From: Altererythrobacter sp. B11
Lineage (GTDB): Bacteria; Pseudomonadota; Alphaproteobacteria; Sphingomonadales; Sphingomonadaceae
DNA: 64,000 nt
Reading direction: 5' to 3'
NCBI RefSeq assembly: GCF_003569745.1
Contig: NZ_AP018498.1
Coordinates: forward strand, 3,697,001 to 3,761,000
Part shown: positions 35,411-50,364 of the stretch, piece after piece
How the letters are laid out: the number at the start of each line of letters is the position of its first letter
Position numbering within the stretch: position 1 is the first letter of the stretch
The notes under the pieces: model-generated
Database searches by the model: none
What the model saw: only the letters and a program-made list of their open reading frames with translations
Told to the model about the DNA's origin: nothing
Program-made: the position numbers and the translations under genes

Positions 35411-37628
<2,218 letters not shown>

Positions 37629-37724
37629 CTAGGCGTTCGCCGCCGGCCCTGCAAGCGTGGCGGCGGACAGGGCGTGCGCCCTGTGCTATGAAGGCGGCGC
37701 GGGAGGGCGAAAGGGAGATTCGCC

Positions 37725-38111
37725 ATGATCACGCATGCCCGCCTGCTCGCCGCCACGCTGGCGCTCGCCGCGCCGGTGGCCGCCGCCGCCCACCACGGCT
37801 GGGCCTGGACCGAGGATGAGGAAAGCCGCCTTGCCGGCACCATCCAGTCCATCAGCTTCGGCAATCCGCATATGCACCTGCAGCTGCTGAGCGAAGGGAA
37901 GACCTGGGAGGTCGATCTCTCGCCGCCCATCGTCGCCCAGCGGTCGGGCTTCGGGCCGGATGCGGCGAAGGCCGGGGATGCGGCGGTGCTGACCGGCCAC
38001 CGCGCGCGCGACCGCGATGTGCGCGGCTTCAAGGCCGAGACCATCACCGTGAACGGCAAGACCTATGACGTCTATCCCCAGCGGGACAAGACGCTGAAAA
38101 GCGCCGGCTAG
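37725..38111 (+). CDS. DUF6152-family exported protein
   Basis: A 128-residue periplasmic protein with signal LLAATLALAAPVAAAAHHGW and a domain with RLAGTIQSISFGNPHMHLQL, KTWEVDLSPPIVAQRSGF and DRDVRGFKAETITVNGKTYDVYP. The HHGW start after the signal and the GNPH motif are typical of DUF6152. Function unknown; histidines suggest metal binding. It is divergent from thiC and converges with the phosphatase gene (4-bp end overlap). Confidence 0.85.
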   Translation: MITHARLLAATLALAAPVAAAAHHGWAWTEDEESRLAGTIQSISFGNPHMHLQLLSEGKTWEVDLSPPIVAQRSGFGPDAAKAGDAAVLTGHRARDRDVRGFKAETITVNGKTYDVYPQRDKTLKSAG

Positions 38112-39799
38112 GCCCCCGCCCCGCCACGCAGTTCCACGCTGCCGCCCGCGCGGGCGATGGCGTAGCTGCGCAGCATCAGCGGCCGGTAATCCGGGCTTTC
38201 GATGGTGGACATGCCGATGAAGCTGGTCTGCGCCGCGTCGGGCCGCAGGTCCAGCCGCACATAGCCCTGGTGGAAATTGTCGGTCCACAGCACCTCCTCC
38301 ACCATTTCGGCAAAGGCGGTGTCGAGCCGGGCGGAGAGATCGCGGTCGAACCCGCTTTCGAGGAAATCGCCGGGCGAGGTGACGCCCGCCGTGCCCAGTT
38401 CGATGCCCATCGGCCGCCCGGCGCCATCCGCCAGACGGTTGGCCCAGAAGCTGTGGCTATCCCCCGTCAGCACGATCAGGTCGCGCGCGCCGGCCTTGCT
38501 GCACAGATCGTAGAACCGCTCCCGCGCCCAGGGGTAGCCGTCCCATGTGTCGGTGTAGAAGGGCAGGTTCCACTGCGCCTTCCACGCCAGCGCCTGCGCC
38601 GCGGGGGCGAGGCCCGGGGTGTCCGCCGCGGGCAGCAGGCCGGCGCCCACCAGATCGGGTACCTCCATCCGCGCCATGGGCACGGCATTGCCGATCACCC
38701 GCCAGGGCTGCCCCTCCGCCACGGAGCGGGACAGCGCATCGGCCAGGAACAGTTCCATGTCATGGCTCAGCATCGGCCGGTCGGGCGCGCCCAGCACGTC
38801 GCGGCGGAACTTCTCGACATCGGCCTTGCTGGTGAAGGCGCCGGCATAATCGGCATAGTCGATCTGCCGCGCGCGTGCCGTGTGGCGCGTTTCCAGCGTC
38901 ACCAGCGTGGCCAGATCGCCGAAGCGATAGCTGCGCCAGAATTCCGCCCGGCTGCGCCCCACCCCCGGCTCGCGGATCGGCAGCCATTCGTAATAGGCCT
39001 GGATGGAGGCCGCGCGGCGGGATAGCCAGTCCCCCTCCTGCGCGGGCTGGTGGTTCTCCGCCCCGCCGATCCACGGATTGTTGGCGCTTTCGTGATCGTC
39101 CCAGCAGGCAATGAAGGGATGCGCCGCGGTCATCGCCTGCAGCCCCGCGTCGCGGCGATATTGCGCATGGCGCGTGCGATAATCGGAGAGGCTGACGATC
39201 TCGTTCGCCGGTTCGTGCAGGCGGCCCAGCTTGCGCCCGGCCTCCGCGCCCCAGCCATCGGCGCCATATTCGTAGATATAGTCGCCCGTGTGCAGCACGA
39301 TATCCACCAGCGGATCGCGCGCGATGGCATCATAGGCGTTGAAATAGCCGAAGGGATAGTTGGAGCAGCTGACCAGCGCCACGCCCAGCCGGTCCAGCGC
39401 GCCGGTGGGCAGGGTGCGCGTGCGCCCGGCGGGCGACACCTCCCCATCCATCACGAAGCGATAGTGATAGCGGCGGCCGGGCTCGAGCCCCTCCACCAGC
39501 ACCTTCACCGTATAGTCGTGATCGGCCGAAGTGGTGACACGGCCGGAGCGGGCCACGGCGGTGAAGGCGGCGTCGGTGGCCAGCTGCCATTCCACCGCCT
39601 GCTGCGGGGCATCGCTTTCTACCCGGGTCCAGATCACCAGGCTGGAGCTGTCCGGATCGCCGCTGGCCACGCCATGGCGGAAGCGGGCCGAGGCAGGCTC
39701 TGCCGCTTGCAAGCGCAGCGGCAGGCCCGCGGCGATGCCGCCCGCGCCCAGCGCGGCCACCGCCTGCCGCCGATTCCATCCCCTGCCCTGCTGGCTCAT
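38108..39799 (-). CDS. phoD: PhoD-family alkaline phosphatase/phosphodiesterase, Tat-exported
   Basis: A 563-residue PhoD-like phosphoesterase. The N-terminus carries a twin-arginine signal (GWNRRQAVAALGAGGIAAGLPL). Mature motifs include RFRHGVASGDPDSSSLVIWTRV, VLHTGDYIYEYGADGW, FIACWDDHESANNPW (metal-binding DDHE) and IVLTGDSHSFWANRL. PhoD enzymes release phosphate from a range of phosphomonoesters and diesters in the periplasm. Start at ATG 39799. The TonB-dependent receptor gene lies just upstream on the same strand with a terminator between them. Confidence 0.93.
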   Translation of the reverse strand: MSQQGRGWNRRQAVAALGAGGIAAGLPLRLQAAEPASARFRHGVASGDPDSSSLVIWTRVESDAPQQAVEWQLATDAAFTAVARSGRVTTSADHDYTVKVLVEGLEPGRRYHYRFVMDGEVSPAGRTRTLPTGALDRLGVALVSCSNYPFGYFNAYDAIARDPLVDIVLHTGDYIYEYGADGWGAEAGRKLGRLHEPANEIVSLSDYRTRHAQYRRDAGLQAMTAAHPFIACWDDHESANNPWIGGAENHQPAQEGDWLSRRAASIQAYYEWLPIREPGVGRSRAEFWRSYRFGDLATLVTLETRHTARARQIDYADYAGAFTSKADVEKFRRDVLGAPDRPMLSHDMELFLADALSRSVAEGQPWRVIGNAVPMARMEVPDLVGAGLLPAADTPGLAPAAQALAWKAQWNLPFYTDTWDGYPWARERFYDLCSKAGARDLIVLTGDSHSFWANRLADGAGRPMGIELGTAGVTSPGDFLESGFDRDLSARLDTAFAEMVEEVLWTDNFHQGYVRLDLRPDAAQTSFIGMSTIESPDYRPLMLRSYAIARAGGSVELRGGAGA

Positions 39800-39820
39800 C
39801 GCGCAATCCTTCGCTTCGAC

Positions 39821-39867
39821 AAAAGAGGCGCCCCGCCCGCCCATGCCGCAGCACGGGCAGGCGGGGC
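39821..39867 (-). terminator. Intrinsic terminator after the TonB-dependent receptor gene
   Basis: On the minus strand GCCCCGCC (39860-39867) pairs with GGCGGGGC (39830-39837), extended by further GC pairing around GCCCGTGC/GGCATGGGC. CGCCTCTTTTGTC follows as a T-rich tail. It lies in the 82-bp gap before phoD, so the two genes may be separate units or linked by partial read-through. Confidence 0.75.
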
Positions 39868-39881
39868 TGCCGGTCATCCGA

Positions 39882-42299
39882 TCAGAAATCCGCGGTTACG
39901 GTGAAGCTCACCGTGCGCGGGGCGCCGATCCAGGCCGCATCGCTGGAGATGCCGCCCAGATAGCTTTCATCGGTCACATTGTTGGCGACCAGCCGGAACG
40001 ACATGGATTTCAGCACATCGCTGATCCCTTCGCCGTTCACGCCGATATAGACGTCGGTCAGGAAGTAGCTGTCCGCTTCCCAGCTGTTGGCGCGGTTGAC
40101 GAAGCGCTTGCCGGTGTATTTGCCCGAAACGCCGGCCACGAAGGGCCCGCTGTTCCAGTCCGCCGAAAGGACGAACATGTCCTTGGGAATGCCGGTGACC
40201 TGGTTGCCGTCCACAATGCCGTTTTCCGCATCCAGATCGGCATCGCCCGTGCCGCGATAGGTGGCATCGGTGTGGGTGTAGCTGGCATAGACGCCCAGCG
40301 AGGGCAGCAGGCGATAGCTGGCCACCAGCTCCACGCCTTCCGCGTCGATGCCGCCGGCGTTGAGCCAGGTGCCGCTGCCTTCGCCCAGATAGTCGATGCC
40401 GGAGCCGCTGTTGGCCGAAAGGAAGATCAGCCGGTTCTTGAACACGCTGTTGAAATAGGTGGCCGAAGCCTGCAGCCGCCCGGTGGTGTAGCGCACGCCC
40501 GCTTCGATATTGCGCGATGTTTCGGGCTTCAGCCTGTCCAGATCGGCCGCGGCCACTTCCAGGATCGAGTCCGTCAGCGCCTTGTAGTTTTCGGCATAGC
40601 CGCCGAACAGGGTGACATCGGGCACCACGCGATATTGCAAGCCGCCGGAGAACAGCACCTTGGAGGTGGAGGTCAGATCCACATCGGCGCTCTGGCCGAA
40701 CTGGTCGCGCCGGTCCACCGTGGCGCGGAACTGCTTGATCCCGGCCGTGGCGGTAACGGGGCCATATTCGAACTGTTCTTCCGCATACCACTTGAAGGTC
40801 GTCTGCGGATATTCGCGGCTATACTGCGTCCAGTAAGGCTCGCTGTAGAATTCCGGCCCCACGCGCGCATCCACCAGCAGGTGCCAGTCGCGATGTTCCT
40901 TGCGGGGCGAATCTTCGTACCAGATGCCGCCGCGCAGCTGGTTCTCGCCGCCCGCCAGCTGGGCATGCCAGATCGCCTCACCCGTGCCGCCGATGCGGTG
41001 CTTGCGATAATGGGTGTGGCGATAGGACTGCACGGGGATCGCATCCGCCTGGTAGCAGGCCGGGTCCACCGCCGGATCGGTGGTGCCGCCATAGGGGAAC
41101 TTCAGCGTGCCCACGCAGCCCGCGATCGGACTCAGCGCCACGCCATTGGCATCCACGAAATAGAACCGGCCGAGCTGCTGCCCGCCGTTCACCGTGTTGC
41201 CGGGCACCAGCTCGCTTTGCGGGCCGGTGCCGTCCGGCAGCACGTCCACCACGTAATAGGGCGCCCAGTCGCCGCGGCCGACCATGTTGTGGAAGTAGAC
41301 CGCGCCCTTGAGATCGAGCGAGTCCCCGATGCTGCCTTCGGCCTTCAGATAGGTGAAGAAGTTTTCGCGCAGCGTGCCCCACACCTGGCGATAGGATTGA
41401 TCGACATAGGGGACGCCGGTCCAGTTGCCGATCAGCTGGTCCGTATCGGGCGCCAGCGCGAATTGCTGCGCCGAATAGACCTGATCGTAATTGTTCTCCA
41501 GCGTATCGTCATAGGCGGCATAGCCGGTGATGCGGATCGGCCCGGTGGTGACGAACTTGCCGGCAAAATGGGTGCGGTGGTTGTCGGCGGATTCGCTCGC
41601 CCAGTCGGTCGCCTCCTGATAGCTGCCCGAAATCCACGCCTTCACCTGATCGCCCAGGATCAGGCCGGTGTCATAGCGGCCATAGAAGCGCTGCGCATCG
41701 AACTGGCCCAGCGTGGCGGATACGCGCATGCGCCGTTCGTCCACCGGATCATCGGTGCGGAAGTCGATCGTGCCGCCCAGCGCCTCGTTCGACAGCGCGC
41801 CGATGTCGGCCGTGCCCTGCGAAACGGCCACGCCGCCGATGTTCATCGTGTCGATGAAGCGGTTGGCCTTGGACCCGCCGCCATAGGCGCTGCCGCCATT
41901 GGGCAGGCCGTCGATTGTGATGCCGATCTGCTGCGTATCCAGCGTGGTCTGGAAGCCGCGGATGCTGACGCTGGTGGACCAGTCGTCGAAGCCGAAGGTG
42001 TCACCTTCCTGCACGGAAACGCCGGGCAAATTGTCGATCAACGCCAGCGGGCTGGTGATCGGCGATTGCTGGGCCACCATGGGTTCGGTGGTTTCGCTGT
42101 TGTTATAGACGGTGGCGGTGCCGATCACGATGATCGGATCGCCTTCCGCCAGCGAGGTGTCGGCGGCGGCATCGGCGGCTTCTTCCGCCAGCGCGGGCTG
42201 TGCGGCGGCGAGGAGCAGCCCGCCGAGCGGCGCGGCCATGATCTGGCGCATGGTGAGCCGGCACGGCTGCGGGCCGCGCGCAAAAACTGTCTGGTGCAT
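39882..42299 (-). CDS. TonB-dependent outer-membrane receptor
   Basis: An 805-residue TonB-dependent receptor with a signal peptide ending LLLAAAQPALAEE, and a TonB-box-like segment (DPIIVIGTATV) near residue 55. A plug domain follows (ITSPLALIDNLPGVSVQEGD...SVSIRGFQTTLDTQQIGITIDGLPN), then a beta-barrel ending in VSFTVTADF with the terminal Phe. The ATG at 42299 has a good AGGGA 7 nt upstream. The ligand is unknown. The adjacent PhoD phosphatase suggests, but does not prove, uptake of a phosphorylated compound. Confidence 0.93.
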   Translation of the reverse strand: MHQTVFARGPQPCRLTMRQIMAAPLGGLLLAAAQPALAEEAADAAADTSLAEGDPIIVIGTATVYNNSETTEPMVAQQSPITSPLALIDNLPGVSVQEGDTFGFDDWSTSVSIRGFQTTLDTQQIGITIDGLPNGGSAYGGGSKANRFIDTMNIGGVAVSQGTADIGALSNEALGGTIDFRTDDPVDERRMRVSATLGQFDAQRFYGRYDTGLILGDQVKAWISGSYQEATDWASESADNHRTHFAGKFVTTGPIRITGYAAYDDTLENNYDQVYSAQQFALAPDTDQLIGNWTGVPYVDQSYRQVWGTLRENFFTYLKAEGSIGDSLDLKGAVYFHNMVGRGDWAPYYVVDVLPDGTGPQSELVPGNTVNGGQQLGRFYFVDANGVALSPIAGCVGTLKFPYGGTTDPAVDPACYQADAIPVQSYRHTHYRKHRIGGTGEAIWHAQLAGGENQLRGGIWYEDSPRKEHRDWHLLVDARVGPEFYSEPYWTQYSREYPQTTFKWYAEEQFEYGPVTATAGIKQFRATVDRRDQFGQSADVDLTSTSKVLFSGGLQYRVVPDVTLFGGYAENYKALTDSILEVAAADLDRLKPETSRNIEAGVRYTTGRLQASATYFNSVFKNRLIFLSANSGSGIDYLGEGSGTWLNAGGIDAEGVELVASYRLLPSLGVYASYTHTDATYRGTGDADLDAENGIVDGNQVTGIPKDMFVLSADWNSGPFVAGVSGKYTGKRFVNRANSWEADSYFLTDVYIGVNGEGISDVLKSMSFRLVANNVTDESYLGGISSDAAWIGAPRTVSFTVTADF

Positions 42300-42451
42300 G
42301 GTTGTTTCCCTGAACGCTCGATTGCGCCGGGACCGATGGCCTGCGATTTGGACGGCGTGTTGACGATTTCGCGATCATTGCGCGACAGTTTCGTGGCGGA
42401 TTTCTTACGCGCTGCGCGGCTGCGGCGGGCGGCGTGCAGGGGCCGGCGGGC

Positions 42452-43102
42452 ATGACCATGCTCTATCGCCTTGATGCGGATGCCCATTCCGTCGCCCGCA
42501 CCTTCGGCGCACGGGCCGGGGCCGATCCCTGGGCAGGAGGGCATGTGGCGCCCGGCGGCTTTGCGCCGGTGATCACCGCGGGGCGCGAATTTATTGCCGG
42601 GCCGCGTCCTGCGCCAGGGCCGGGGGTCGGGGAACGGCGGATGATCCCGCGCCTGTGGGGCGTGCCGCCGCCGCCCTCCGCCCGCGATGGCGCGGGGCGC
42701 GGCGTCACCAGCGTGCGCAATGCGGACAGCCCGTTCTGGATCGGCAATCTGCGCAACAGCGAATTCCGCTGTCTCGTCCCCGCCACCGCCTTCATGGAGT
42801 GGGGTGCGGGGACGGACCGCGACGGACGCCGCATCCGCCACTGGTTCGCACCCACGGACCAGAGGCTGTTCGCCTTCGCCGGGGTGTGGAAGGACAGCGA
42901 AGTGCCGGCCTTCGCCCTGCTCAGCTGCGCAGCCAACGCGGTGCTGCGCGCCGCCGGGCGCGATGCAATGCCGGTGATCCTGCCGCCCGATCCGCGCGCG
43001 CAGCACCTGTGGCTGCACGGCGACTGGGGGCGGGCAAAGGCGCTGATCGCGCCCTATTCCTCCGCCCTCCTGCGCGAACGGCAGGAGGGCGAGAGGGACT
43101 GA
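42452..43102 (+). CDS. SRAP (YedK/HMCES)-family protein lacking the catalytic Cys2
   Basis: A 216-residue protein with the SRAP fold pattern: MIPRLWGVPPPP, SVRNADSPFWIGNLRNSEFRCLVPATAFMEWG, LFAFAGVWKDSEVPAFALLS and RDAMPVILPP. Active SRAP proteins begin Met-Cys and use Cys2 to crosslink to abasic sites in single-stranded DNA, with a Glu and a His (HxRMP) in support. Here the N-terminus is MTMLYRL with no cysteine at position 2, and the HDRMP segment reads GRDAMP. The glutamate (MEWG) remains. It is probably a non-catalytic or divergent subgroup member. Confidence 0.75.
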   Translation: MTMLYRLDADAHSVARTFGARAGADPWAGGHVAPGGFAPVITAGREFIAGPRPAPGPGVGERRMIPRLWGVPPPPSARDGAGRGVTSVRNADSPFWIGNLRNSEFRCLVPATAFMEWGAGTDRDGRRIRHWFAPTDQRLFAFAGVWKDSEVPAFALLSCAANAVLRAAGRDAMPVILPPDPRAQHLWLHGDWGRAKALIAPYSSALLRERQEGERD

Positions 43103-43111
43103 GAGGGCGCC

Positions 43112-43957
43112 TTAGAAAGTGTAGCCGATGCCGATGGCCCCGGCCCACTGGTTGGCGCTGCCGCGGATGCTGACGATCGGCGAATCCTTCGCATCCCCGA
43201 GCATTCGGGAATAGCTGCCGACGGCGAACAGGGCGAGGCCGCCATTGGCCAGCTCGCCATCGAGATCATAGGCCATCAGCAGCGAGGCGCCGGCCTTGGT
43301 GAAGCCGCCATCCGCCTGATAGGCCGGCAGCCCGCTGGCGAGCGACTGCCCCGGAGTGATCGAATAATAGTAATCGGCGAAGGAATCGTCGCCATATTCC
43401 GCATTCAGGCTGAGCGTGGCAGCCATGCCGCGGCTGAGCGGGGTGAAATAGGCGATGGAGGGATTGACCACCATGCCATCATGCGCGCCGGCGACATCCC
43501 ACAGCACGTCGGTGGTGACCGTCAGGCTGTCATAGGGGTTGAGCACGCCGGGGAAGCGGACGCCGGCCGTCGGCCCGACTTCCACCGCCGTATCGAGCTC
43601 GCCCAGGCTCTTCACCACGGGATCCTTGATCTGCCGCGTCCGGTTCAGCCGCAGGCGGCCCGCTACGCCCAGGTTGAAGCCCGGCCCTTCGGCGGCATCG
43701 GGCACGAAATCCAGCGCGAGGCCCGCCGCGCGCGGGTTGATGCCCACGCCCTTGATGGAGCCCTGCACCAGCGGCACGGGGGAGACGACGTAATCGTCCG
43801 ACCCGTCATAGCTGGGCACCACCGCCGCGCCGACGCCGACGCTGAGGTAATCGCCATCGAACACGGTGTCTTCCCGCGCGGCGGAATCCTGCGCGCAGGC
43901 CGGGCTGGCGATCGCCAGCGCAAGGGCGCTGCCGAGCAGCGGAACGAACGATTTCAT
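43112..43957 (-). CDS. MipA/OmpV-family outer-membrane protein
   Basis: A 281-residue outer-membrane beta-barrel of the MipA/OmpV family with signal LGSALALAIASPACAQD. The mature part alternates strands, with YLSVGVGAAVVPSYDGSDDYVVSPVPLVQG and a C-terminal strand ending WAGAIGIGYTF. MipA-like proteins have been tied to murein-synthase scaffolding and antibiotic uptake in other bacteria. Start at ATG 43957. The open frame continues far upstream opposite crtY, but that part is antisense. It is convergent with the SRAP gene, 9 bp away. Confidence 0.9.
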   Translation of the reverse strand: MKSFVPLLGSALALAIASPACAQDSAAREDTVFDGDYLSVGVGAAVVPSYDGSDDYVVSPVPLVQGSIKGVGINPRAAGLALDFVPDAAEGPGFNLGVAGRLRLNRTRQIKDPVVKSLGELDTAVEVGPTAGVRFPGVLNPYDSLTVTTDVLWDVAGAHDGMVVNPSIAYFTPLSRGMAATLSLNAEYGDDSFADYYYSITPGQSLASGLPAYQADGGFTKAGASLLMAYDLDGELANGGLALFAVGSYSRMLGDAKDSPIVSIRGSANQWAGAIGIGYTF

Positions 43958-44068
43958 GCATGAACCCCACATAATTGTGCCGCTTAAACCCACGGCCGCG
44001 CACGCGGTTCCACCGGGCCCGCACAGCACAGGCGTTGCGCCCCCGCCGCCATCCGCTAGAGCAGGCGC

Positions 44069-45250
44069 ATGAGCGAGCGGGATTGCGATTTGGCCCTTGT
44101 CGGCGGCGGCCTGTCCGGCGGGCTCATCGCGCTGGCAGTGGCGCGGAGCCGGCCCGATCTGCGCCTGCGCCTGATCGAGGCGGGCGAGCGGCCCGGCGGC
44201 AATCACCGGTGGAGCTGGTTTGCCAGCGACCTTTCCCCCGCAGGCGCGGCGCTGATGGACCGCTTTCCCGCGGCGCAGTGGCAAGGCGGCTATCGCGTGG
44301 CCTTCCCGGCCCGCACGCGCGATCTCGCCACCCCCTATCGCTCGCTCGCCTCGGCCGACTTCGCCGCGGTGCTGGAGCAGGCCCTGCCCGCCGGCACGAT
44401 CCGCACGGGCACGCTGGTGGCCGCGCTGGATGCGGAAGGCGTGACGCTGGAAGGCGGGGAGCGGATCGGCGCGCGCGCCGTGATCGATTGCCGCGGCTTT
44501 GCCCCCACGCCGCATCTGACCGGCGGCTGGCAAGTGTTCATGGGCCGACACCTGCGCACCACTGCCCCGCATGGCGTGCAGGCGCCCACGATCATGGACG
44601 CGCGGGTGGAGCAGGCGGGCGGCTATCGCTTCGTCTATACCCTCCCCCTCACCCCGCATGAGATCTTCGTGGAGGACACCTATTACCAGGACAGCCCGCT
44701 GCTGGACCGGCAGGCGCTGTCGCAACGGATCGACGAATATTGCGCGGCGCAGGGCTGGCACGGCACCACGCTGGCGAGCGAGACGGGCGTGCTGCCGGTA
44801 GTGACCGGGGGCGATTTCGCCGCCTGGCAGGCCAGCCTGCGCGTGACCGGCGTGGCCCGTGCGGGCGCGCGCGGCGGCTTCCTCCATCCGCTCACCAGCT
44901 ATACTCTCCCCTTCGCGGTGGACACCGCGCTCGCCATCGCCGGGGCGGCCGACCTGCCGGGGCCGCAGCTCGCCGCCATGCTGGAGGCGCGCGCCGCGCG
45001 CCACTGGCGCGCCACCCGTTTCTATCGCCGCCTCGGCGCCATGCTGTTCGGCGCCGCCCGCCCAGAGGAAAGATATCGCGTGTTCGAACGCTTCTATGGC
45101 CTGCCGGAGCCGCTGATCGAGCGCTTCTATGCCGCCCGCTCCACCCCGGGTGACCGGCTGCGCCTGCTCTGCGGGCGGCCGCCCGTGCCGGTGATGGGCG
45201 CGCTCCACGCCCTCGCCACCACGCGCCCGGCGCTGCAGGTGGCGGCATGA
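44069..45250 (+). CDS. crtY: Lycopene beta-cyclase
   Basis: CrtY closes both ends of lycopene to give beta-carotene. The 393-residue flavoprotein has the dinucleotide motif DLALVGGGLSGGLIALAVA at the N-terminus, followed by LIEAGERPGGNHRWSWF. It also has the CrtY-type segments GGYRFVYTLPLTPHEIFVEDTYY and GFLHPLTSYTLPFAVDTALAIA. It is the first gene of the crt cluster, overlapping crtI by four bases (ATGA), in the order crtY-crtI-LOG-crtB. Confidence 0.96.
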   Translation: MSERDCDLALVGGGLSGGLIALAVARSRPDLRLRLIEAGERPGGNHRWSWFASDLSPAGAALMDRFPAAQWQGGYRVAFPARTRDLATPYRSLASADFAAVLEQALPAGTIRTGTLVAALDAEGVTLEGGERIGARAVIDCRGFAPTPHLTGGWQVFMGRHLRTTAPHGVQAPTIMDARVEQAGGYRFVYTLPLTPHEIFVEDTYYQDSPLLDRQALSQRIDEYCAAQGWHGTTLASETGVLPVVTGGDFAAWQASLRVTGVARAGARGGFLHPLTSYTLPFAVDTALAIAGAADLPGPQLAAMLEARAARHWRATRFYRRLGAMLFGAARPEERYRVFERFYGLPEPLIERFYAARSTPGDRLRLLCGRPPVPVMGALHALATTRPALQVAA

Positions 45251-46749
45251 ACGCCCCCGCCCCCGCCACTCGCCGCGCCTGCGTGATCGGATCGGGCTTC
45301 GGCGGGCTTGCGCTTGCCATCCGCCTGCAATCCGCGGGCATCGCCACCACGGTGGTGGAAGCGCGCGACAAGCCCGGCGGCCGCGCCTATCACTGGCAGC
45401 GCGAAGGCTTCACCTTCGATGCCGGCCCCACGGTCATCACCGATCCCGATTGCCTGAAGGAATTGTGGGCGCTGAGCGGCCACGACATCGCCGAGGACGT
45501 GGAGCTGATGCCGGTGATGCCGTTCTACCGGCTCAACTGGCCCGACGGCACGAATTTCGATTATTCGAACGACGACGCCGAGCTGCGCCGCCAGATCGCG
45601 CGGCTCGATCCCGCCGATATCGCCGGCTACGAAGCCTTCCTGGATTATTCCGCCGCGGTCTATCGCGAGGGCTATCTGCGGCTGGGCACGGTGCCCTTCC
45701 TCGATTTCCGGAGCATGCTGAAGGCCGCCCCCGCGCTGGCAAAGCACCAGGCATGGCGATCGGTCTATTCCATCGTCAGCAAATATGTCCGCAACGAGAA
45801 GCTGCGCGAGGCGCTGAGCTTCCACACGCTGCTGGTGGGCGGCAATCCGATGACCACCAGTTCCATCTATGCCCTGATCCACAAGCTGGAGAAGGACGGC
45901 GGCGTATGGTGGGCGCGCGGCGGCACCAACCGCCTGATCGCCGGCATGGTGCGCCATTTCGAGCGGCTGGGCGGCACCATGCGGCTGGGCGATCCCGCCG
46001 TTCAGGTCCACACCATCGGCAACCGCGCGAGCGAGGTGGAAACCGCCAGCGGCTGGCGCGAAGGCTTCGATGCCGTGGCCAGCAATGCCGATATCGTGCA
46101 CAGCTATCGCGAGCTGCTGGGCAGCAATCCGCGCGGCAAGGCGGAAGGGCGCCGGCTCGCCCGCAAGCGCTTCAGCCCCTCGCTCTTCGTCGTCCACTTC
46201 GGGATCGAAGGCAGCTGGCCGGGCATTCCGCATCACATGATCCTGTTCGGCCCCCGCTACAAAGGCCTGCTCGACGATATCTATTCCAACGGCGTGCTGC
46301 CGCGCGATTTCTCCATCTATCTGCACCACCCCACGGTGACGGACCCGAGCATGGCACCGCCGGGCAAGAGCACCTTCTACGCATTGGTGCCGGTGGCCCA
46401 CATGGGCAAGCTGACGGTGGACTGGCAGAAGATCGGCCCGGTGCTGGAAAAGCGCGTGCTGGACGAGGTCGGGCGGCGGCTGATCCCCGATATCCATGAC
46501 CGGATCGTGACCAGCTTCCACTACACGCCCCGCGATTTCGCCGGCGACCTCCACGCCCATATGGGCAGCGCCTTCAGCCTGGAGCCGGTGCTGACGCAGA
46601 GCGCCTGGTTCCGCGGCCACAATCGCGACGATGTGATCGGCAATTTCTATCTCGTGGGTGCGGGCACGCATCCCGGCGCCGGCATTCCCGGCGTGGTCGG
46701 CAGCGCCAAGGCCACCGCCGGCCTGATGCTGGAGGATCTCGCGCGATGA
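45247..46749 (+). CDS. crtI: Phytoene desaturase
   Basis: CrtI desaturates phytoene in four steps to all-trans-lycopene, with FAD. The 500-residue product has the FAD motif CVIGSGFGGLALAIRLQSAG at residues 12-31, EARDKPGGRAYHWQREGFTFDAGPTVI, and the C-terminal carotenoid-desaturase segment YLVGAGTHPGAGIPGVVGSAKATAGLML. Length is standard. It is coupled to crtY by the ATGA overlap and is followed 37 bp later by the LOG gene. Confidence 0.97.
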   Translation: MNAPAPATRRACVIGSGFGGLALAIRLQSAGIATTVVEARDKPGGRAYHWQREGFTFDAGPTVITDPDCLKELWALSGHDIAEDVELMPVMPFYRLNWPDGTNFDYSNDDAELRRQIARLDPADIAGYEAFLDYSAAVYREGYLRLGTVPFLDFRSMLKAAPALAKHQAWRSVYSIVSKYVRNEKLREALSFHTLLVGGNPMTTSSIYALIHKLEKDGGVWWARGGTNRLIAGMVRHFERLGGTMRLGDPAVQVHTIGNRASEVETASGWREGFDAVASNADIVHSYRELLGSNPRGKAEGRRLARKRFSPSLFVVHFGIEGSWPGIPHHMILFGPRYKGLLDDIYSNGVLPRDFSIYLHHPTVTDPSMAPPGKSTFYALVPVAHMGKLTVDWQKIGPVLEKRVLDEVGRRLIPDIHDRIVTSFHYTPRDFAGDLHAHMGSAFSLEPVLTQSAWFRGHNRDDVIGNFYLVGAGTHPGAGIPGVVGSAKATAGLMLEDLAR

Positions 46750-46786
46750 TCGAACCCGTTAATCCTCCCCGGGCCGGAGAGGTATT

Positions 46787-47368
46787 ATGAAGCGGATTGC
46801 GGTGTATTGCGGGTCGGCCACGCCGGCGGATCCGCGCTATGTCATTCTGGCCCGCGAGATCGGGGAGGAGCTGGCGCGGCGCGGGATCGGGCTGGTCTAT
46901 GGCGGCGGCAAGCTGGGGCTGATGGGCTCCGTGGCCTATGGCGCGCTGGATGCCGGCGGCGAGGTGATCGGCGTGATCCCCGAGGCGCTGGTGGGCGGCG
47001 AAGTGGCCAATGAGGATTGCACCGAACTGCATGTCGTTGCCAACATGCACCAGCGCAAGCAGGCCTTCACCGATCTGTCCGATGGTTTCCTGACCATCCC
47101 CGGCGGGGTGGGCACGATGGACGAATTGTGGGAAGCGGTCAGCTGGGCGCAGCTGGGCTATCATGCCAAGCCCGTGGGGCTGCTCAACGCCTTCGGCTTC
47201 TATGACGGGCTGATCGAATTCTACCGCCACATGGCCGATACCGGCTTCATTCGCGAGGCCCATCGCGGCATCCTCATTCAGGACGAAGCGCTGGACCCGC
47301 TGCTGGCCAAGATGGCCGCCTATGTCCCGCATCGCACGATCTTCCAGATGAAGGCAGAGGATCTCTAG
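46787..47368 (+). CDS. LOG-family (TIGR00730) nucleotide 5'-monophosphate phosphoribohydrolase
   Basis: A 193-residue LOG-family protein. It starts IAVYCGSATPADPRYVILAREIGEELARRGIGLVYGGGKLGLMG and carries the signature PGGVGTMDELWEA. Members hydrolyse cytokinin riboside or other nucleoside monophosphates to base and ribose-5-phosphate. The ATG at 46787 follows GGAGAGG. It lies between crtI and crtB on the same strand with short gaps (37 and 6 bp), so it appears to be cotranscribed with the carotenoid genes. Confidence 0.93.
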   Translation: MKRIAVYCGSATPADPRYVILAREIGEELARRGIGLVYGGGKLGLMGSVAYGALDAGGEVIGVIPEALVGGEVANEDCTELHVVANMHQRKQAFTDLSDGFLTIPGGVGTMDELWEAVSWAQLGYHAKPVGLLNAFGFYDGLIEFYRHMADTGFIREAHRGILIQDEALDPLLAKMAAYVPHRTIFQMKAEDL

Positions 47369-47374
47369 CCGCCG

Positions 47375-48436
47375 ATGCCCCGCCCACGCCTGCTTGCCCC
47401 TTCCCGCATCCTTCGCACCACGCCCCGCCAGGTGGGCGGCGGCCGCCCGCGCGCGGCGCTGGTGGAACGGGCGCGGCAGAGCATTGCGCGCGGCAGCCGC
47501 AGCTTCGCCCTCGCCAGCCAGCTGTTCGACCGGCAGACGCGCGAGCGGGCGTGGCTGCTCTATGCCTGGTGCCGCCGCTGCGACGACATTGCCGATGGGC
47601 AGGACCATGGCGGCGCGCTGAGGCCGGACGAAGAGGGCGCGCGTGACCGGATCGAGGCGATCCGCGTGCTCACCGCGCGGGCGCTGGACGGGCAGCCCAC
47701 CGCCGATATCGCCTTCGATGCGCTGGGGCAGGTGGCGGCGGAGGCGCATCTGACGGCCGAGATGGCGGATGACGTGATCGAAGGCTTCGCGCTGGATGCG
47801 GCCGGCTGGCGCCCGCGCAGCGAGGCGGACATGATGCGCTATTGCTATCACGTCGCGGGCGCGGTGGGCGTGATGATGGCGCGGGTGATGGGCGTGGCGG
47901 CGGACGATCACGACACGCTGGACCGGGCCTGCGATCTGGGCCTGGCCTTCCAGCTCAACAATATCGCGCGCGACCTGCTGGAAGACGATGCCGCCGGGCG
48001 CTGCTATCTGCCCGTGGAATGGCTGGTGGAGGCGGACATTCCGCCGGGCCAGCACATGAAGCCGGCCTATCGCGCGGAACTGGTGGAAATGGCCGCGCGG
48101 CTGGTGGACATTGCCGACGAGCATGAGGCGGCGGCGCGGGTGGGCGCGGCCCGGCTGCGCTTCCGCCAGCGGTGGGCGGTGCTGGCCGCCGCCAATATCT
48201 ATGGCGCGATTGGCCGCGAAGTTCGTACACGCGGCGCGGCGGCCTGGGACCACCGCGTCCACACCTCCGCCCTCGCCAAGCTGGGCCATGTGGCAGCGGC
48301 CTTCCTGCAGGCGCTGCGCCGGCCGCCCCAGCCGGCGGAATGGCCCCGCTGGACGCGCGGCGAAATCCTGGTGGCGGTGCGCATGGCCGGCCCGGTGGCG
48401 CCGATCCCGATGACGCCGCTGCCCGATGATGTATAG
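47375..48436 (+). CDS. crtB: Phytoene synthase
   Basis: CrtB condenses two geranylgeranyl diphosphates to phytoene. The 353-residue product has the two aspartate-rich motifs: CRRCDDIADGQD in the first and FQLNNIARDLLEDDAAGRCYLP in the second. RGSRSFALASQLF and EADMMRYCYHVAGAVGVMMA are also typical. The N-terminal 30 residues are an unusual Pro/Arg-rich extension. It begins 6 bp after the LOG stop and is the last carotenoid gene of the cluster. crtE and crtZ are not in this window. Confidence 0.95.
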   Translation: MPRPRLLAPSRILRTTPRQVGGGRPRAALVERARQSIARGSRSFALASQLFDRQTRERAWLLYAWCRRCDDIADGQDHGGALRPDEEGARDRIEAIRVLTARALDGQPTADIAFDALGQVAAEAHLTAEMADDVIEGFALDAAGWRPRSEADMMRYCYHVAGAVGVMMARVMGVAADDHDTLDRACDLGLAFQLNNIARDLLEDDAAGRCYLPVEWLVEADIPPGQHMKPAYRAELVEMAARLVDIADEHEAAARVGAARLRFRQRWAVLAAANIYGAIGREVRTRGAAAWDHRVHTSALAKLGHVAAAFLQALRRPPQPAEWPRWTRGEILVAVRMAGPVAPIPMTPLPDDV

Positions 48437-48462
48437 ATCTCTCTGAAAAACGGAGAGGAAGC

Positions 48463-50364
48463 ATGATCCAGTCGCTGCTCATCGCCAATCGCGGCGAAAT
48501 CGCCTGCCGCATCATCCGCACGGCGCGGGCGATGGGTATCCGCACGGTGGCGGTCTATTCCGATGCCGATGCTCGCGCGCTGCATGTGCGGCAGGCGGAT
48601 GAGGCGGTGCATATCGGCCCCTCGCCCGCGGCCGACAGCTATCTGGTGGGCGAGCGGATCATCGCCGCGGCCCGGCAGGCCGGGGCGGAGGCGATCCACC
48701 CCGGCTATGGCTTCCTGAGCGAGAATGCCGCTTTCGCGCAGGCGGTGATCGAGGCCGGGCTGGTGTGGGTTGGTCCGAAGCCCGACAGCATCCGCGCCAT
48801 GGGGCTGAAGGATGCGGCCAAGGCGCTGATGCAGGAGGCCGGCGTGCCGGTGACGCCCGGCTATCTGGGCGAGGACCAGAGCCCGGAGCGGCTGCTGGCG
48901 GAGGCCGAGGCGATCGGCTGGCCGGTGCTGATCAAGGCCGTGGCCGGCGGCGGCGGCAAGGGCATGCGCAAGGTGGACGAGGCGCGCCACTTCATCGAGA
49001 TGCTGGAAAGCTGCCGGCGTGAAGCGCAGGCGAGCTTCGGCAACACGCAGGTGCTGCTGGAAAAGTGGATCACCTCCCCCCGCCATATCGAAGTGCAGGT
49101 GTTCGGCGACACGCACGGCAATGTGGTGCATCTGTTCGAGCGGGACTGCTCGCTGCAGCGGCGGCACCAGAAGGTGATCGAGGAAGCCCCCGCCCCCGGC
49201 ATGGACGAAGCGACGCGCGAGCAACTCTGCGCCGCCGCCGTGCGCGCGGCCAAGGCGGTGGATTATGTCGGCGCGGGCACGGTGGAATTCATCGCCGACG
49301 CCAGCGAAGGGCTGCGCGCCGATCGCATCTTCTTCATGGAAATGAACACCCGCCTGCAGGTGGAACATCCGGTGACGGAAGCGATCACCGGGGTCGATCT
49401 GGTGGAATGGCAGCTGCGCGTGGCAAGCGGGGAGCCGATCCCGCTGCGGCAGGACGATCTGGCGATCACCGGCCATGCGATCGAGGCGCGGCTCTATGCC
49501 GAAGACCCGGCCAAAGGCTTCCTGCCGAGCACCGGGCGGCTGGAGCATCTCCACTTCGGCCCGGCGGACCGGGTGGAGACGGGGGTGGAGGAAGGCGGCA
49601 CCGTCTCCCCGCTCTACGATCCGATGATCGCCAAGCTCGTGTGCCACGGCGCCGACCGGGGCGAAGCGATCGACGCGCTGCTGGCCGCCACCGCCGGCAC
49701 CGAAGTATGGCCGGTGCGGACCAATGCGGGCTTTCTCGCCCGCGCGCTGGACGCCGCCGCCTTCCGCCATGCGGAGCTGGACACCGGCTTCATCGAGCGC
49801 GCGGGCGAAGCGCTGATCCCGCCGGCAGAGCCGCCCGAGCTGCTGTGGCTGGTCGCGGCGCGGATCGCGATGGAGGATGCGGGGGATGGGCCGCTCGCCG
49901 GCTTCCGCCTGAATGCGGCGCCAAGGCGTGCCGTGACGCTAGGCCGCGGCGGCGTGTTCCGCTCGATCGACCTCGCGGAGGCAGCGGCCGAGGTGCACGA
50001 GGCGGATGCGGAGGAGGATGACGCGGAGGCGGCCATCGTCTCCGGCTATCGCGATGGGGATGCGATCATCCTGTTCGCCGACGGCACCGCCTATCGCTTC
50101 GATCTCGCCGCGCGCGGGTCGGGCGCGGCGGCGCTGGGCGATGGCGCGATCCTGGCGCCGATGCCGGGCAAGGTCATCGCCGTGGATGTGGCCGAAGGCG
50201 ACCAGGTGGAGGCCGGGCAGCGGCTGCTGGTGCTGGAGGCGATGAAGATGGAGCACGCCCTCACCGCGCCCTTTGCCGGCACGGTGGCGGAGCTGACCGC
50301 CAGCGCGGGTGCGCAGGTGCAGGTGGAGGCGCTGCTCGCCCGGGTGGAGAAGGCGGAGGGCTGA
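48463..50364 (+). CDS. Biotin-dependent acyl-CoA carboxylase, alpha subunit (AccA3/MccA/PccA type)
   Basis: A 633-residue fusion of biotin carboxylase and biotin carrier domains. Domains in order: N-terminal biotin carboxylase (LLIANRGEIACRIIRTARAMG), ATP-grasp (LIKAVAGGGGKGMRKV), MEMNTRLQVEHPVTEAITG, a linker, and a C-terminal biotinyl domain with EAMKMEH, biotin on Lys595. It supplies carboxybiotin to a carboxyltransferase beta subunit, which is not adjacent. Methylcrotonyl-, propionyl- or acetyl-CoA specificity cannot be decided. It follows crtB by 26 bp and may be cotranscribed. Confidence 0.93.
   Translation: MIQSLLIANRGEIACRIIRTARAMGIRTVAVYSDADARALHVRQADEAVHIGPSPAADSYLVGERIIAAARQAGAEAIHPGYGFLSENAAFAQAVIEAGLVWVGPKPDSIRAMGLKDAAKALMQEAGVPVTPGYLGEDQSPERLLAEAEAIGWPVLIKAVAGGGGKGMRKVDEARHFIEMLESCRREAQASFGNTQVLLEKWITSPRHIEVQVFGDTHGNVVHLFERDCSLQRRHQKVIEEAPAPGMDEATREQLCAAAVRAAKAVDYVGAGTVEFIADASEGLRADRIFFMEMNTRLQVEHPVTEAITGVDLVEWQLRVASGEPIPLRQDDLAITGHAIEARLYAEDPAKGFLPSTGRLEHLHFGPADRVETGVEEGGTVSPLYDPMIAKLVCHGADRGEAIDALLAATAGTEVWPVRTNAGFLARALDAAAFRHAELDTGFIERAGEALIPPAEPPELLWLVAARIAMEDAGDGPLAGFRLNAAPRRAVTLGRGGVFRSIDLAEAAAEVHEADAEEDDAEAAIVSGYRDGDAIILFADGTAYRFDLAARGSGAAALGDGAILAPMPGKVIAVDVAEGDQVEAGQRLLVLEAMKMEHALTAPFAGTVAELTASAGAQVQVEALLARVEKAEG

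Follow-up and report, generated by a model that had tools for sequence, protein, structure and literature searches.

The closest described relatives of the protein analysed here belong to the SRAP superfamily, whose best-known representatives are YedK of Escherichia coli and HMCES. YedK forms its crosslink by Cys2, ring opening involves Glu105 together with His160, and Schiff-base formation is attributed to Glu105 (PMC9436759). Aravind et al. (2013) described the cysteine of this superfamily as "absolutely conserved" and always located at position 2 (PMC3765255), and a YedK paper from 2022 calls Cys2 "invariant" (PMC9436759). SRAP genes have been listed among the induced SOS genes of Sphingopyxis in a study whose account of them does not tell Cys2-bearing and Cys2-less genes apart (PMC6472365), and a cluster of SOS response-associated peptidases has been found to co-occur with halotolerance in Pontixanthobacter (PMC10040529). 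Our literature search, which worked on titles and the beginnings of abstracts and had most subscription journals outside its coverage, returned no report on Cys2-less SRAPs.

The window, a stretch of 64,000 nucleotides from Altererythrobacter sp. B11, harbors a gene of the SRAP type without Cys2 (Table 1). A sequence-only reading had proposed that its product retains the SRAP fold but lacks both Cys2 and the active-site His, and the present analysis confirms this. The protein begins with Met-Thr-Met (MTMLY) and carries a GRDAMP (GRDAMPV) segment. The Pfam model SRAP (PF02586) matches residues 6-205 with an E-value of 3.6e-15 and 56.5 bits, well above the cut-off of 27.1, and NCBIfam yielded no matching model for this protein. 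The AlphaFold model, based on an alignment of 125 sequences, has a mean pLDDT of 93.9 and a pTM of 0.91. Foldseek retrieved 21 PDB chains at E <= 0.001, 16 of them with YedK or HMCES titles; the other five are the structural-genomics entries 2aeg, 1zn6, 2f20 (twice) and 2bdv, all counted among the SRAP superfamily structures (PMC3765255). VIA-align gave Z scores of 23.8 to 2aeg (Agrobacterium Atu5096), 21.4 to HMCES (5ko9) and 20.6 to YedK (6kbz), with residue 2 of the model placed on residue 2 of the chain in 14 of 15 rows. The modeled fold is thus that of SRAP, and score and structure agree on the membership of the protein in the superfamily.

The reading had itself named two findings that would speak against it, an upstream start codon restoring Met-Cys and a fold unrelated to SRAP. 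The latter is ruled out by the AlphaFold model, Foldseek and VIA-align. With respect to the former, the frame is open 5' of the ATG as far as a GTG at 42434 (M-Q-G-P-A-G-M-T-M), and none of the in-frame start codons, including this GTG, provides Met-Cys. The relatives align at the same start, while the sequence 5' of it differs among them, so that the annotated ATG at 42452 is most likely the true start and a wrongly chosen start codon can be dismissed.

Table 1. Coordinates of the SRAP-fold gene, its diagnostic codons and the thiC locus within the window.
Feature	Positions	Strand	Remarks
Cys2-less SRAP-fold gene	42452..43102	+	216 aa; ATG at 42452, stop TGA at 43100-43102
Thr2 codon (ACC) at the place of Cys2	42455..42457	+	predicted mature N-terminus if Met1 is removed
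R45 to P51 (REFIAGP)	42584..42604	+	includes the A49-G50-P51 insertion, which none of the six sisters has
Ser87 codon, aligned with YedK Asn75	42710..42712	+	YedK alignment
Arg89 codon, aligned with YedK Arg77 and kept	42716..42718	+	YedK alignment; R in 95/97 of the clade
Glu116 codon, aligned with YedK Glu105 and kept	42797..42799	+	YedK alignment; E in 76/97 of the clade
Gly169 codon, aligned with YedK His160	42956..42958	+	YedK alignment; G in 96/97 of the clade, one gap
thiC	35607..37586	-	divergent upstream neighbour in most relatives; here 4.9 kb off, beyond two genes
TPP riboswitch of thiC	37513..37622	-	RF00059, 62.0 bits, E 9.6e-10

The active-site positions were read from an alignment with E. 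coli YedK of the MG1655 record. Three of the four residues found in active crosslinkers of the YedK/HMCES type, namely Cys2, Asn75 and His160, are gone, and only Glu105 is kept. YedK Arg162 aligns with Ala172, a difference that is not special, as many Cys2-bearing alphaproteobacterial SRAPs read HPKAMP. By the established chemistry of YedK the protein, as translated, cannot form a Cys2 thiazolidine crosslink, because it has no Cys2 thiol. YedK of K-12 MG1655 (L114:222-890) itself reads HDRRP, and the other SRAPs compared mostly show HxxMP.

The fold is shared with YedK and HMCES over residues 2-216 (Z about 20-21), and the positions of Arg77 and Glu105 are conserved between them. Compared with YedK, the protein is shorter between Arg77 and the SPFW helix and has a longer hairpin between P39 and W69. 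The Cys2-bearing Atu5096 (2aeg) is the best PDB match both by structure and by profile (E 4.5e-38); the two proteins have similar VT-x-VR...W and AMPV segments, but MCNLY and HEKAMPV of 2aeg are replaced by MTMLY and GRDAMPV. Six Cys2-type sisters with a DPW motif (L116, L117, L120, L123, L125 and L126) share the LYRLD start, DPW, P66-R67, W69-G70 and RN..SPFW. These sisters keep Cys2, Asn75 and Glu105 (6/6) and mostly His160 (5/6), with MCNLYRLD, VTNVRN and HPKAMP as typical segments, whereas the A49-P51 insertion, N102 and G169 are missing from them and the positions of T42, G44 and R45 are not constant.

The distribution of the Cys2-less type was investigated by a protein search that covered 298 genomes from the same family as the window; 221 of them contained a match. 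Full-length close relatives (at least 57% identity, with the Cys2-type G180 excluded) are present in 31 of the 298, and one more genome (G116) carries a relative as two contig-end pieces. A collection of 84,980 species genomes provided 80 further loci by a pattern search that included MTMLYRLD, a pattern that favors Thr2 among these additions. The loci from both searches partly overlap; identical proteins enter the residue counts once but were not collapsed in the neighbour counts. The resulting core clade comprises 97 distinct sequences, all from Sphingomonadaceae, so that the Cys2-less subclade expected by the sequence-only reading does exist. A sequencing error or a lone pseudogene is ruled out, given that 97 distinct relatives share the loss.

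Position 2 is Thr in 73, Pro in 23 and Leu in one of the 97 sequences, and Cys in none; the single Leu (L029) may represent a misplaced start. The 31 core genomes found without the pattern show the composition T27, P3 and L1. The Asn75 site is occupied by T (52), S (39), H (2), N (2), V (1) and A (1), the Arg77 site by R (95) and A (2), and the Glu105 site by E (76), V (9), A (4), L (4), I (3) and D (1). His is absent from the His160 site in all 96 scorable sequences. Among the 48 other SRAPs of the alignment, Asn75 is present in 45, Glu105 in 46, His160 in 45 and Cys2 in 42, one of the latter (L142) being a row without a clear start. Three of the six others without Cys2 are gapped at this position, the start of L134 is unclear, and L158 and L166 represent a separate Cys2-less kind. 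The genes of this second kind (L158:4926-6230 on the minus strand, MARIY...; L166:4143-5486 on the plus strand, MSRLY...) each immediately precede a Cys2 SRAP gene of the same orientation in an operon-like arrangement, and their products have Asn75, Glu105 and His160 replaced as well.

A class-level search of 385 genomes retrieved core-like scores (>340 bits) only from four genomes of the window's family, with next-best scores of 87 bits within this family and 75 bits outside it. All 26 loci that were read from among the best-scoring ones of that search (L178-L203, of which L178 belongs to the window's family) start with M or V followed by Cys. In the samples searched, the Cys2-less SRAP clade is limited to Sphingomonadaceae.

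The clade is marked by gains as well as by losses. G50, which is part of the insertion, and N102 (both 97/97) as well as N99 and G169 (both 96/97) are fixed in the clade and occur in none of the six Cys2-type sisters. The flanking insertion residues A49 and P51 are found in 94 and 93 of the 97 sequences. K147 (95/97) corresponds to Arg in all six sisters, and P178 (94/97) is absent from them. F37, T42, G44, R45 and R63 are invariant in the clade (97/97) and variable in the sisters. We regard the combination of losses and newly fixed sites as the trace left by a change of function.

For the phylogenetic tree, 154 rows were thinned to 121; rows of at most 170 aa were dropped, and so were, beforehand, the ambiguous rows L134, L136, L142, L165 and L174. 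The bootstrap of this tree had not settled, and YedK and L148 form long branches. A core of 69 rows (support 100/99) does not contain any Cys2, and the Cys2-bearing L116, L117, L120, L123 and L126 are located within the same group of 81 rows as the clade (support 97/100). The Cys2 label changes three times on the whole tree; at least two of these changes are forced by well-supported branches, and one corresponds to the separate L158/L166 pair. At the level of single residues, nine changes were counted for position 2, nine for Glu105 and 22 for Asn75. The Cys2-type sister L117 (L117:5001-5594) keeps Cys2, Asn75 and Glu105 and has Asn in place of His160; given this partly altered active site, the losses can come stepwise. 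Cys2, Asn75 and His160 are also missing from another nine sequences of the wider group, and in seven of these nine Glu105 is gone as well.

Most of the core genomes have not given up the canonical protein. Our PF02586 search of the 31 core genomes recovered a second SRAP in 29 of them, the exceptions being G102, where none was found, and G284 with only two pieces, one of them with an internal stop. All 28 second SRAPs whose start was read begin with Met-Cys, and so does the one of the window's own genome (L001). The retention of a Cys2 SRAP in the same genomes therefore documents that the Cys2-less protein is an addition and not a replacement.

The protein is thus an SRAP member by fold that stands outside the crosslinking SRAPs, and its function very likely differs from that of its relatives. 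On the basis of the sequence comparisons we lean towards the interpretation that it is a neofunctionalized, non-crosslinking paralogue which would bind a ligand, probably DNA, non-covalently beside the crosslinking paralogue. The former catalytic pocket would have been turned into a ligand-binding pocket, and single-stranded or damaged DNA would be held, with no stable covalent linkage, by the SRAP surface that has been kept. R89 and the conserved elements W69-G70 and S93-P94-F95-W96, which we take to face the DNA, would form the holding surface. HMCES offers a precedent, as one of its roles is reported to depend on DNA binding but not on crosslinking (PMC10250235). A gene of the uracil-DNA glycosylase (UDG) superfamily, which follows the SRAP gene in some core loci, also speaks for this reading. 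The sequence-only reading had already suggested a non-covalent role or a new function, and this stands as the best interpretation; it had missed the loss of Asn75, the retention of Glu105, the clade-specific residues and the gene neighbours. Four observations argue against a DNA binder. The most persistent neighbour is thiC, which is no repair gene, the UDG-superfamily gene is found in a minority of the loci and not near the window's gene, perfect LexA-type boxes are present upstream of few core genes, and Glu105 is kept in most of the clade, although pure binding would not be expected to need it.

This last point bears on the alternative that survives best, namely that the protein is an AP lyase in which the N-terminal amine of Thr2 or Pro2 would form a Schiff base with the aldehyde of the abasic site, followed by beta-elimination, no thiol being available for a thiazolidine. 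The earlier reading had not considered such a nucleophilic role of Thr or Pro, and we treat it as a tentative possibility. All but one of the 97 sequences carry T or P at position 2, while position 3 varies widely, and through nine changes of state A, S, G and V were reached in none of the 97. After removal of Met1 the protein would start with Thr or Pro, like the AP lyases T4 PDG (endonuclease V) and Fpg/Nei, which use the amine of the N-terminal Thr (PMC3285167) and the N-terminal Pro (PMC11323726), respectively, as nucleophile. The folds of these enzymes were not among the structural matches, which at E <= 0.001 were SRAP only, but absence from such a list does not exclude a family. The C2A variant of YedK reacts with AP-DNA to give an imine and acts as a lyase; E105Q slows this 25-fold, compared with only 2.5-fold for H160Q (PMC9436759). 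Glu105 is kept in 76 of the 97 sequences, including the window protein, and Glu3 of Nei2 is dispensable for AP lyase activity (PMC11323726). However, the other 21 sequences have V, A, L, I or D at the Glu105 site, with nine changes on the tree, and His160, a helper in ring opening, is lost throughout the clade. Cys2-blocked YedK E105Q and H160Q showed no strand cleavage (PMC9436759), and the exchange of Pro2 of Nei2 for Ala or Cys abolishes most of the trapping, so that an amine alone is not enough (PMC11323726).

The preference for T and P at position 2 could instead reflect Met removal or translation start. Three other Thr-majority columns, which served as a control, contain 74 other residues that are mostly Ser (56) or Ala (11) and never Pro; this control is weak, as two of the columns lie in model strands that disfavor Pro. 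Thr, Pro and Cys at position 2 all permit the removal of the initiator Met. This removal is documented for Cys in YedK (PMC9436759), Pro in Nei2 (PMC11323726) and Thr in T4 PDG (PMC3285167).

A lyase would depend on a supply of AP sites, which the gene of the UDG superfamily (PF03167; the L016 member scores 76.2 bits) could provide. In 15 of the 96 core loci it follows the SRAP gene in the same orientation, in nine of them as the next gene and in six of those nine with a gap of 1-74 bases; L016/L058 and L013/L053 look like the same genome sampled twice, which leaves about 13 independent cases. These loci (e.g., L050, L054, L070, L071 and L102) belong mostly to Novosphingobium. NCBIfam gave no match for this neighbour, and the gene was found neither among the neighbours in the window (36001-50000) nor in the 11 other wider-group members scored. 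The more far-reaching scenario, in which the change from Cys2 to Thr or Pro turned an AP-site shield into an N-terminal-amine AP lyase that converged chemically, from an unrelated fold, with T4 PDG and Fpg/Nei, while the cells retained a Cys2 SRAP and some species have a UDG-family gene next to it, appears unlikely.

The neighbourhood was tabulated with a rough gene caller, which recovered the SRAP gene from 108 of the 126 loci. The neighbour cluster to which the window's thiC belongs is located upstream and divergent in 76 of the 96 core loci, and in 50 of the 53 loci with at least 5 kb of upstream sequence, versus 37 of 108 loci for the next commonest cluster. This persistence is the basis for the improbable alternative that the rebuilt pocket binds a small molecule or protein tied to thiamin synthesis and that the work on DNA has been abandoned. 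Yet the two are transcribed divergently, with 1-6 predicted genes between them in 45 of the 76 loci, and so form no operon, and shared ancestry of the locus within one family explains thiC without a functional link. The retention of R77 and the common SRAP elements and the UDG-family gene downstream in a minority of the loci likewise stand against it. Because the pair is divergent and often separated, we interpret it as conservation of the location rather than as proof that both genes serve one pathway. Among the 11 other members of the wider group, thiC is near in only one, and there in another orientation. A Pfam scan of the other nine neighbour-cluster representatives found no repair family, and three of them were without any Pfam match.

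In the window, phoD and a TonB receptor stand between thiC and the SRAP gene. The longest thiC ORF starts (ATG at 37586) within the TPP riboswitch; the true thiC start probably lies further inside, because the family models match only from residues 58-63 onwards. On the strand opposite the TonB receptor gene runs an open frame of 974 aa (39531-42455, plus strand), which is probably a by-product of the high G+C content and no gene.

Regulation by DNA damage was approached via the GTTC/GAAC-N7 motif, which we take to be the LexA-type box. Perfect boxes within 200 bases upstream were found in three of the 96 core loci and in five of the 45 Cys2-type loci that served as a control, and boxes with up to one mismatch in seven loci of each type; this control is uninformative. 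Hence, a link to DNA damage via LexA boxes is not supported by these upstream sequences. Where thiC directly adjoins (e.g., L044 and L070), the gap often holds the inverted repeat ATAGACG...CGTCTAG. In 44 of 95 loci CTAG is present within the 40 bases that precede the start, compared with an expectation of 0.0185 per locus, and mostly at a distance of 13-18 bases. The motif was rejected as the promoter of the SRAP gene, as [CG]TCTAG occurs in 24 of 28 thiC-adjacent loci versus 9 of 67 others; it more likely belongs to thiC, perhaps as part of its promoter.

The comparison of coding sequences indicates that the Cys2-less clade is under purifying selection. The median dN/dS is 0.28 for 4345 unsaturated pairs, and among the 25 least diverged pairs 24 range from 0.08 to 0.31 and one reaches 0.45. 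A decaying duplicate without function, to which the missing active-site residues and the stronger divergence of wider-group side members such as L148 and L129 might point, is thus very improbable in view of this dN/dS, the many invariant positions across the 97 sequences and the absence of any stop inside the match in the 31 core genomes.

The automatic label "SOS response-associated peptidase", under which such genes are annotated, does not imply activity. A stable Cys2-less clade beside a Cys2 SRAP represents a natural separation-of-function set, in which the fold and probably the DNA surface are kept and the crosslink chemistry is gone, and it would allow the roles of SRAP proteins apart from crosslinking to be asked directly.
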